Assembly (NCBI RefSeq): GCF_902809865.1
Contig: NZ_CADDWH010000001.1
Location: 3,596,001-3,660,000, forward strand
Direction of reading: 5' to 3'
Source of the DNA: Halobacillus sp. Marseille-Q1614
Lineage (GTDB): Bacteria; Bacillota; Bacilli; Bacillales; Halobacillaceae
DNA: 64,000 nucleotides
The notes beneath the pieces were generated by a model. The model was not told the origin of the DNA. It saw only the letters and a program-made list of their open reading frames with translations, and did no database searches. Of the stretch, positions 553-2,351 are shown in pieces (within the stretch, counting starts at the first letter, position 1; every line of letters starts with the position of its first letter). A program made the position numbers and the translations under genes.

Positions 553-583
553 AAAAAAAGCCCCTGCTATAATCAGCGGGGGC
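553..583 (-). terminator. Terminator of the regulator-peptide unit
   Basis: The stem GCCCCTGCT/AGCGGGGGC has one G-T wobble and is flanked on the left by a run of A, which is a T-run on the minus strand. It lies ~60 bases beyond the stop of the small peptide gene. Confidence 0.75.
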
Positions 584-643
584 AAAAATTTATAGGTATA
601 GGATTAGGGGAGGTGTTATTCATTAACACACTAAATCAAAAAA

Positions 644-760
644 TTAAACCTGTACAATTAAGGGTCTTGGATGATTATCTTCCGCTGTATCATGAACAAT
701 AGGTGCGGCTGCAGAAGCCAGTAATGTAGCTAAAGCTAATACAGCTAACAGTTTTTTCAT
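644..760 (-). CDS. Small exported peptide, candidate signal-peptide precursor of the adjacent RRNPP regulator
   Basis: This is a 38-codon gene. Residues 1-19 form a short secretion signal: MKKLLAVLALATLLASAAA, with a KK start, a Leu/Ala core and an A-x-A site. A ~19-residue polar tail ending in PRPLIVQV follows. Its ATG overlaps the stop of the upstream regulator (ATGA), and a strong Shine-Dalgarno AGGAGGG lies 9 bases upstream inside the regulator's last codons. This is the arrangement of Phr, PapR and NprX pro-peptides, which are secreted, trimmed to a C-terminal 5-10-mer and re-imported by an oligopeptide permease to bind the cognate TPR receptor. The signal peptide and overlap are seen directly; the signalling role and mature form are inference. 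No other gene follows before the terminator. Confidence 0.75.
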   Translation of the reverse strand: MKKLLAVLALATLLASAAAPIVHDTAEDNHPRPLIVQV

Positions 761-2040
761 AGATATATCCCTCCTAGTTGAGAATGTTTATTTAACAATT
801 CAATTGCTAACCTAAGGTAAGATGAAGATTTCTTGTACATTCTTTGCTTTTCCAATAAATCTGCGAGAAAAACAGCATAGCGTATTATATAGTAATAATT
901 ATTCCTTTCTTGAAAAAAAGGAATAACTTCATCTTCTAAATAAATTGAAAGATTTGGCTTATTAGTTATTAACCTCTGGTAAAACTCAAAGTGGAGTTCA
1001 TGAGCTTTTGATGAGAAATCTTTGAGTTTACTTTTCCCTTCTTCAATCCAATGGGCGCAACCTTCATAATCACCAAGCTTATAGTACTCAATGATTAATC
1101 CATGAATAGTATTTAACAATTCATAAAGATTTTGTGGAGCTTCAGAATCAAACGCATATTCTAAGCTTTTTAAATAATTATCAATGGAAGCTTTATGGTT
1201 ATCGAACCTCGCTTCTAAAACACCTATATTATTATAAGCAAATTTTAGTTGTTCAAGGTCATTGGTTTGAAGGGCAATCTTCCTGGCTAAATGATAGTTT
1301 TCCAGAGACTTATTATAATTTCGAAGTCTGCTGTAATTTATCCCCAGAATTATATGACAATCTGCGCTTCTCGATAGATCATACTGGGATTGATACATAT
1401 CAAGAGCTTGTTCAGCATAAAAGACTGAAGCTGATCCTTGAAAGGCCTGGCTTGTACTTAAAGATAATAAATAGTAAAGATCACTAATTTCCCAGCGTTC
1501 TATATCCACTGAGGAGAAGGTTTCTTTTGCTGCTGTTAACTCATGTACTGAATCATCGAAATCGCCTTTATAGTATTTCACTAGCCCTGTGATCAAATGA
1601 TAATAAAACGCCATCTCTTCATCAAAAGTATCTTTATGCTGTTTGATATTTTTCCATGCTTCATAAGCCTCCTCAACATTACCTTCTAAAAGCAAGTATC
1701 GGATGCGGAAAAGTTCATAGAAAACATACAATTGATGGTTGTTAAGCATATTCTTTTGCTGAAGGAGTTCATCTTGCAGCCGCGTAGCATCTTCTGAGCG
1801 CTTTAATACGATCGCTTCATACCATTCCTTAAGCTTTTCTTTAGAAGGATGGTTGAGCGCAGACTCGTTAATATCGATACCGAGCCTTTCGTAAAGCAGT
1901 TCAAGCACCTCAATCGCAGGCACCGTCTGATCATTTTCAATTTTAGAAAGATAGGCAGACGAAATGATGCCATCAGCGAGCTGGTTTTGTGTCAAACCCT
2001 GTTTAACACGATGAAACCGAAGCGCTTTGCCATATTCCAT
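757..2040 (-). CDS. RRNPP-family (NprR/PlcR-like) HTH-TPR transcriptional regulator
   Basis: Residues ~5-60 are an XRE-type helix-turn-helix (LRFHRVKQGLTQNQLADG...AYLSKIEND). The remainder is all-helical with tetratricopeptide repeats; one clear unit is AYNNIGVLEARFDNHKASIDNYLKSL. The ~427-residue length and HTH-plus-TPR order match NprR-type receptors, which bind a re-imported peptide and switch between DNA-binding states. A GTG at 2052 is possible, but AGGTG sits 9 bases before the ATG at 2040, so I prefer that start. A 14-bp palindrome lies just upstream and may be an autoregulatory operator. The stop overlaps the start of a small secreted peptide gene, its likely ligand. The regulon is unknown. 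NprR versus PlcR versus Rap-like grouping rests on length and domain order only. Confidence 0.85.
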   Translation of the reverse strand: MEYGKALRFHRVKQGLTQNQLADGIISSAYLSKIENDQTVPAIEVLELLYERLGIDINESALNHPSKEKLKEWYEAIVLKRSEDATRLQDELLQQKNMLNNHQLYVFYELFRIRYLLLEGNVEEAYEAWKNIKQHKDTFDEEMAFYYHLITGLVKYYKGDFDDSVHELTAAKETFSSVDIERWEISDLYYLLSLSTSQAFQGSASVFYAEQALDMYQSQYDLSRSADCHIILGINYSRLRNYNKSLENYHLARKIALQTNDLEQLKFAYNNIGVLEARFDNHKASIDNYLKSLEYAFDSEAPQNLYELLNTIHGLIIEYYKLGDYEGCAHWIEEGKSKLKDFSSKAHELHFEFYQRLITNKPNLSIYLEDEVIPFFQERNNYYYIIRYAVFLADLLEKQRMYKKSSSYLRLAIELLNKHSQLGGIYL

Positions 2041-2053
2041 TTTCACACACACC

Positions 2054-2067
2054 TAGTTGATCAACTA
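2054..2067. promoter_or_regulatory. Perfect 14-bp palindrome TAGTTGATCAACTA, candidate operator
   Basis: A perfect palindrome lies 14 bases upstream of the preferred start of the RRNPP regulator, in its 5' leader. A partial copy (CAACTATA) occurs ~65 bases further upstream near 2131. The position suggests autoregulation, but I recognise no known operator. Confidence 0.4.
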
Positions 2068-2351
2068 TCGATTTGTTAGAATTTTCATCTTCAAATCTAT
2101 TTTCAGAATACACGTTCGATCATTATTTTTCAACTATATTAATAGGTTTCCCAAGTCATCCTTTTTTCTTAGCTTTAAGGAGGTGAAAAAGGACTAACTT
2201 TCACAGATTTTATGGAGGAAAAGGGGTTTTGTTTAAAAAATACAGTAAAAAAAGAACAGAACTTGGTAAAAAGGGTTCTTCTCTCATGAGTAAATATACC
2301 AAAATAAGGGTATAAATGGTATAGGGAAATAGAGAAGGAGGAGATAAGGAA

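Follow-up and report, generated by a model that had tools for sequence, protein, structure and literature searches.

NprR-NprX of the Bacillus cereus group is the described quorum-sensing system closest to the locus analysed here. Its exported propeptide is encoded adjacent to the receptor gene, propeptides with repeated signal units have been reported, and receptors of the NprR type are reported from 21 genera (PMC9765709). The NprR-NprX complex is a tetramer proposed to engage two DNA sites simultaneously, the signal NprX reads SSKPDIVG, and the residues D107, Y118, E188 and Y223 of NprR are required for control of Spo0F (PMC4970707). Other systems of the RRNPP kind have different receptors: Rap of Rap-Phr is without a helix-turn-helix (HTH) domain (PMC9765709), and PlcR of PlcR-PapR belongs to a clan with five tetratricopeptide repeats (TPRs; PMC12700828), with the PapR7 signal being ADLPFEF (PMC6568020). 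Here we analyse an overlapping receptor-peptide gene pair in a 64,000-nucleotide stretch of Halobacillus sp. Marseille-Q1614 (contig NZ_CADDWH010000001.1, positions 3,596,001 to 3,660,000; hereafter the window, whose numbering is used for all features). With a probability of roughly 0.88, the locus is a chromosomal RRNPP quorum-sensing operon of NprR architecture that works by the mechanism proposed below. The gene pair has the following parts.

757..2040, minus strand: receptor gene, 427 amino acids plus stop; HTH at about residues 1-60, three-helix bundle and nine TPR pairs at about residues 63-420
644..760, minus strand: propeptide gene, 38 amino acids, MKKLLAVLALATLLASAAAPIVHDTAEDNHPRPLIVQV; KK n-region, hydrophobic core and polar tail NHPRPLIVQV
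757..760, minus strand: ATGA overlap of the receptor stop (TGA) with the peptide start; ATGA in 30 and GTGA in 3 of the 33/33 intact pairs
770..775, minus strand: AGGAGG ribosome-binding site of the peptide gene, within the last codons of the receptor; present in 33/33

The positions and lengths given for the pair in the preliminary description of this DNA proved exact, as did the minus-strand orientation and the overlap in ATGA, and the strong Shine-Dalgarno sequence that it assigned to the peptide gene is the conserved AGGAGG, nine bases before the peptide start codon. The receptor matches the Pfam families HTH_3, RapH_N and TPR_12, and its predicted fold comprises the HTH followed by nine helix pairs and one short additional helix; domain matches, profile and predicted structure agree on the TPR superhelix of an RRNPP (RRNPPA) receptor. 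Judged on its sequence features, the peptide has the characters of an RRNPP propeptide, being adjacent to the receptor gene and short, with an export-type leader and a C-terminal signal. The putative leader begins with two lysines followed by the hydrophobic core, and the peptide contains an ASA/AAP-like stretch, which we take to be a possible signal-peptidase cleavage region. Receptor class, layout, leader and the conserved C-terminal tail are all consistent with the proposal, made in the preliminary description, of an RRNPP pair formed by an HTH-TPR receptor and an exported peptide.

We searched for the family in 44 genomes, among which the Halobacillus clade comprises the genera g1 (11 genomes), g4 (22) and g5 (1). 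The receptor is present in all 34 genomes of this clade, with 33 receptors intact, and the peptide gene is intact in all 34. Each of the 33 distinct intact receptors leads into a peptide gene of 38-42 amino acids that starts inside the receptor stop and is preceded by AGGAGG. The overlapping pair whose presence in related genomes had been proposed as a check is therefore found in 33 of 33 intact pairs, and the case named as counter-evidence, an intact regulator with a non-conserved or frameshifted peptide, does not occur (0/33). The combination of overlap and AGGAGG in all intact orthologous pairs indicates that the arrangement is not due to chance. The median ratio of non-synonymous to synonymous substitution (dN/dS) of the peptide is 0.43, indicating purifying selection (152 of 528 pairs, with a proportion of synonymous differences, pS, of 0.05-0.6); on the same 152 pairs the receptor yields 0.077, a value near saturation. 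Genus g6 has a receptor relative at 32-34% identity in three of its four genomes, and no receptor was detected at E 1e-40 in g2 (0/5) or g3 (0/1), with weaker relatives where examined. In one Halobacillus-clade genome (G053, locus L126), a two-contig assembly, the receptor frame is broken at several places, perhaps by sequencing errors; the peptide gene and the core of the 3' untranslated region (3'-UTR) described below are intact.

By sequence profile, the nearest receptor is NprR, and in the structure comparison NprR shares first place with Rap among the matches listed; because an HTH is present, the assignment falls to the NprR architecture. As in NprR, the HTH is followed by a three-helix bundle and nine TPRs, and the exported propeptide gene adjoins that of the receptor. 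The preliminary description had likened the layout to Rap-Phr, NprR-NprX and PlcR-PapR together. The likeness to NprR-NprX extends to the domain architecture, whereas Rap, whose targets are response regulators, lacks the HTH that is here the most conserved part of the receptor, and PlcR-PapR, which shares an HTH-TPR receptor and an exported peptide, differs in having five TPRs where nine helix pairs follow the HTH here. PlcR was not among the matches listed in the structure comparison, an absence that is no evidence against kinship. AimR of the AimR-AimP (arbitrium) system showed far lower structural similarity among the matches listed, and in contrast to it the present locus is chromosomal, lying in a genome of 3.98 Mb. 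Mobile carriage was considered and rejected: 11 plasmid records gave a best identity of 31%, two phage records were Rap-like at 22%, and six viral contigs matched in the HTH only. The tail is also distinct, as had been noted for PRPLIVQV, since SKPDIVG occurs in 0 of 33 tails and there is no LPFEF tail, being of HPRPLIVQV type instead, and the pair is flanked here, unlike NprR-NprX, by a rhodanese-domain gene on one side and the aconitase gene (acnA) on the other. A literature search returned no paper naming both RRNPP and Halobacillus, and 'Halobacillus' is absent from the main text of the large RRNPP survey PMC10075063, whose supplementary tables were outside this check and one of whose clusters may contain the receptor. 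The RRNPP kind is already known; this pair was not met in the literature searched.

The distances and partial Mantel tests cover 30 of the 33 species, namely those for which aconitase was available. Averaged over these, protein distance is lowest in the HTH (0.098), followed by aconitase (0.134), the TPR part (0.375), the peptide tail (0.49) and the leader (0.58). The promoter equals the HTH in rigidity and has the following elements.

2196..2206, minus strand: promoter box 1, CTGTGAAAGTT, candidate second operator site; [AG]AAAGT(C/T) by alignment
2146..2156, minus strand: promoter box 2, ACTTGGGAAAC, candidate receptor operator; invariant in 33/33, 12 bp upstream of the -35
2105..2133, minus strand: predicted operon promoter TTGAAA-17-TATTCT, 9 of 12 consensus positions

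Box 1 starts 46 bp from the start of box 2 in 32 of 33 species and 45 bp from it in one, an odd row matched by a shorter pattern, while the 12 bp between box 2 and the -35 and the spacer of 17 bp were each returned by script in 32/33; the odd rows in this geometry (L053 and L059) are mis-hits of the search pattern. A frozen HTH and two-box promoter alongside a divergent sensor and peptide fit an autoregulated, species-private signal. From this pattern in the sequences we infer that the receptor regulates its own operon directly, probably as an activator, its DNA reader staying constant while the signal is specific to each species, and the paired boxes would suit a tetramer with two DNA sites such as that of NprR-NprX.

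The peptide tail carries the motif [HYWF]P[RQEK]P in 32 of 33 species and YPP in one. Its variants are HPRP (10), YPRP (9), WPRP (3), YPQP (3), FPRP (2), WPEP (2), HPQP (2) and YPKP (1), and the end that follows is variable, with 30 distinct last-12 sequences among 33. Among 16 loci with distant receptors (L018-L033), an exported-type peptide lies just downstream in 12, as counted by eye; seven of these peptides contain HPxP (L018-L023, L025) and three HPEY (L029-L031). The tail unit SHPDPQSV occurs in four exact copies and two variants at L021 (G027), and L018 and L022 have two tail units each, a likeness to the NprR propeptides with repeated units that is found here in the relatives. Multi-copy signals were also observed in related systems, with DEESPPTNG twice in the peptide of L134 (G051) and DDSDYPDNKIG three times in that of L138 (G025).

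The assignment is based on the gene anatomy, the overlap, the conservation, the predicted fold, the frozen HTH and promoter geometry, and the divergent sensor and peptide. For export, trimming, re-import, peptide binding, the HTH sites, activation over repression and output, we draw on RRNPP biology, by analogy with which the operon would work as follows. One promoter would drive the receptor and the propeptide, whose overlapping genes are probably translationally coupled. The propeptide would leave the cell by the Sec route. Extracellular processing would then yield a short peptide from its C-terminus, around [HYWF]P[RQEK]PL(V/I)..., which would be re-imported through an oligopeptide permease and bind the TPR groove. 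The peptide-bound receptor would then bind the two promoter boxes via its HTH and activate its own operon in a positive feedback, probably together with other genes. Through this pair, the cells of each species very probably sense their own numbers.

Several observations weigh against this reading. Four of the 16 distant receptors are without an exported-type peptide, and box 2 shows no genome-wide excess, with 97 exact copies of ACTTGGGAAAC in 41 genomes (31 of them at the locus) against 112 for the reversed control (hand-summed), so that no regulon was found beyond the operon itself and further targets, if any, would use a looser site. The residues by which NprR holds NprX are lost: at NprR R126, W167 and H201 the receptor has G120, F161 (aromatic kept) and Q198, with R126 replaced by N in 27 of 31 rows, W167 by F or Y in 31/31 and H201 by Q in 31/31, implying that the NprX binding mode is not transferable to this receptor. 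Co-variation between receptor pocket and peptide tail, which the preliminary description had suggested comparing, turned out not to be specific. With aconitase distance controlled, the tail correlates with the TPR part at a partial r of 0.36 and the leader at 0.66 (permutation p 0.0005 for each), and against HTH distance the values are 0.00 for the tail and -0.07 for the leader (partial Mantel). Because the leader tracks the TPR part more strongly, the tail-TPR correlation reflects linkage and a specific tail-pocket co-variation was rejected.

The residue comparison bears on the possibility that the receptor is a true functional orthologue of NprR, one that would also dephosphorylate Spo0F and delay sporulation when peptide-free and would become a transcription factor when peptide-bound. 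The shared architecture, the proximity by profile and, jointly with Rap, by structure, and a subtilase neighbouring the pair in g6, a related genus, would agree with such a role, as would Y220, which matches NprR Y223 in 31/31 rows. However, among the four residues of NprR needed for Spo0F control (PMC4970707), D107 is replaced by N in 30 of 31 rows (N101 in the present receptor) and Y118 by R in 27 of 31 (R112), with the profile alignment giving the same register, and E188 falls at an alignment gap; we therefore consider full NprR function unlikely. With no NprX sequence and at least two of the four Spo0F contacts lost, a switch acting in transcription only is expected. It is more improbable still that the small open reading frame yields no secreted signal and serves, through its translation as a coupled leader or membrane peptide, to adjust the receptor mRNA. 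Its shortness and its overlap with the receptor stop would suit such a role, but the peptide is under purifying selection, its polar tail carries conserved prolines after the hydrophobic core and then a species-variable end, and relatives have repeated tail units, which are most readily understood in a tail that is excised and put to use. The secreted-signal RRNPP operon remains our preferred account of the gene pair.

Downstream of the peptide gene, we found an element that is new in this analysis and absent from the preliminary description, an invariant 15-nucleotide block in the 3'-UTR, with the following surroundings.

596..610, minus strand: 3'-UTR core CCCCTAATCCTATAC, 15 nt, invariant in 33/33 (31 aligned); also present in G053
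613..629, minus strand: small stem-loop upstream of the core; predicted fold, formed in some but not all species folded
553..583, minus strand: intrinsic terminator a short way behind the core; compensatory changes in 6 of 9 stem pairs across 33 species

The core lies between the peptide stop and the terminator, the stem of which changes freely behind it, with compensation; a simple terminator scan did not list the terminator at 553..583. The exact core occurs once each in 10 of 299 order-wide genomes, which are all ten members of g1 and g4, of the Halobacillus clade, that were sampled. The longest word common to all 33 species is 15 nucleotides in the 3' flank and 11 in the 5' flank of the receptor, compared to 4 and 6, respectively, for the acnA yardstick (30 species). 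In the predicted fold of its own sequence the core is unpaired, as it is in four of six species folded, and it is partly paired in two. As far as fold prediction goes, the region has the characters of a small RNA derived from a 3'-UTR, namely a conserved, mostly single-stranded seed followed by a terminator. A search of Rfam gave no match at the gathering threshold, and sub-threshold hits with E 0.04-1.7, several of them small RNAs over the terminator, were taken as chance. Being sequence-specific, single-copy, mostly single-stranded and located in the predicted transcript, the core is most simply read as an RNA seed or RNA-protein site, and it may be part of a 3'-UTR-derived regulatory RNA.

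The alternative that the core acts as DNA, being bound by a transcription factor or a nucleoid protein, is less likely than not, though its probability is not negligible. An invariant, single-copy sequence is compatible with a role at the DNA level, but the core sits just before the terminator and hence inside the predicted transcript, stays largely single-stranded in predicted folds, and has near-copies in its own genome that are no commoner than the control (28 vs 37). A role as promoter of the following gene is improbable, as that gene is convergent in some species and co-directional behind the terminator in others.

We then considered partners with which a core acting as RNA might pair. 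Near-complements of the core in its own genome numbered 28, one being the element itself, against 37 for the control, and GGATTAGGGG occurs in 65 copies in 11 genomes (11 being the element itself) against 43 for the control (hand-summed), with no clear excess. The acnA start region ranks first of 67 as core partner in the surrounding 84 kb, at -20.0 kcal/mol, and first in 14 of 23 loci (9-14 start regions each, 53 in the window), the species not being independent; the pairing is weak, with a mean z of -0.77 against shuffled cores. Of the 30 species compared, 14 combine GGTATAGG upstream of acnA with CCTATACC in the 3'-UTR; the 3'-UTR part occurs alone in 13 and the acnA part GGTATAGG alone in three (L014, L017 and L049), and none lacks both, a distribution that gives no sign of co-variation. 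We lean against aconitase as a target. Pairing of the 3'-UTR with the ribosome site of the peptide has a mean z of -0.53, and pairing with that of the receptor (UAGGUGUG with CUAUACCUA) is predicted in 30 of 33 species with a mean z of -1.31. As an explanation of the core, the latter was rejected, since it is lost in L014, L017 and L049, which retain the invariant core. Upstream of acnA, at 2308-2325 of the window, lies the element GGGTATAAATGGTATAGG. It resembles a promoter or the site of a regulator, shows complementarity to a section of the 3'-UTR, and retains GGTATAGG in 17 of 30 species.

Taken further, the 3'-UTR suggests a three-part operon made of receptor, signal peptide and a regulatory RNA whose invariant C-rich 15-nucleotide seed, released or in place, would couple quorum state to the translation of other mRNAs, with the divergent aconitase mRNA (weak) and the receptor's own ribosome site as candidate partners. 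We put this forward tentatively, as a possibility with odds below even. Its parallel would be RNAIII of the Staphylococcus aureus agr system, where the effector of quorum sensing is a regulatory RNA (PMC2837412); the likeness concerns the 3'-UTR idea only, agr being of a different family and the RNA here having candidate targets alone. If true, the operon would give an RRNPP system an RNA arm of its own, a parallel to agr/RNAIII in a family unrelated to it, and if the core is a regulatory RNA, RRNPP quorum sensing would gain an output channel not met in the literature searched. The 3'-UTR element, a candidate difference from NprR operons, is the part that could alter the classification of the locus as one of a known kind; either way, an invariant element at the RNA (or DNA) level is exposed as attached to an RRNPP operon. 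Apart from this element, Halobacillus gains a core-genome candidate quorum-sensing system, no paper having been found that joins the genus with RRNPP, and the 33 natural receptor-signal pairs provide a ready set for studying how signal specificity diverges under a fixed DNA reader.

Two further features lie between the promoter and the receptor gene.

2070..2097, minus strand: hairpin near the predicted mRNA 5' end, GATTTG...CAAATC, with compensatory changes
2055..2066, minus strand: 12-nucleotide palindrome AGTTGATCAACT, directly before the weak ribosome site of the receptor; identical in 31/33, one base off in 2

Two-sided compensatory changes were seen in 5 of 13 predicted pairs of the 5' region, all five in the 9-pair hairpin at 2070..2097. 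The palindrome may serve as a DNA site or contribute to the control of translation.

In the 20 kb preceding the window, the genes appear to be of the usual housekeeping and metabolic sort (10 proteins scanned, among them a receptor paralogue), so that no output is evident from the Halobacillus neighbourhood. A subtilase gene (Peptidase_S8 with pro-domain) converges on the pair in genus g6, at 3/3 loci examined (L018:47-1240, L020:2974-4164 and L022:3040-4233), and its product may be either an output or a processing enzyme. The paralogue, an HTH-TPR receptor of 30% identity, lies beyond the window, some 14 kb away from the pair (L135:5342-6607, corresponding to G000:C1:3581395-3582600), and a simple filter detected no convincing exported peptide gene within 300 nucleotides downstream of it in its own genome. 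A counterpart is located 12-17 kb from the pair in 12 of 16 Halobacillus-clade genomes, making the paralogue a conserved, possibly orphan receptor that might hear the same signal.
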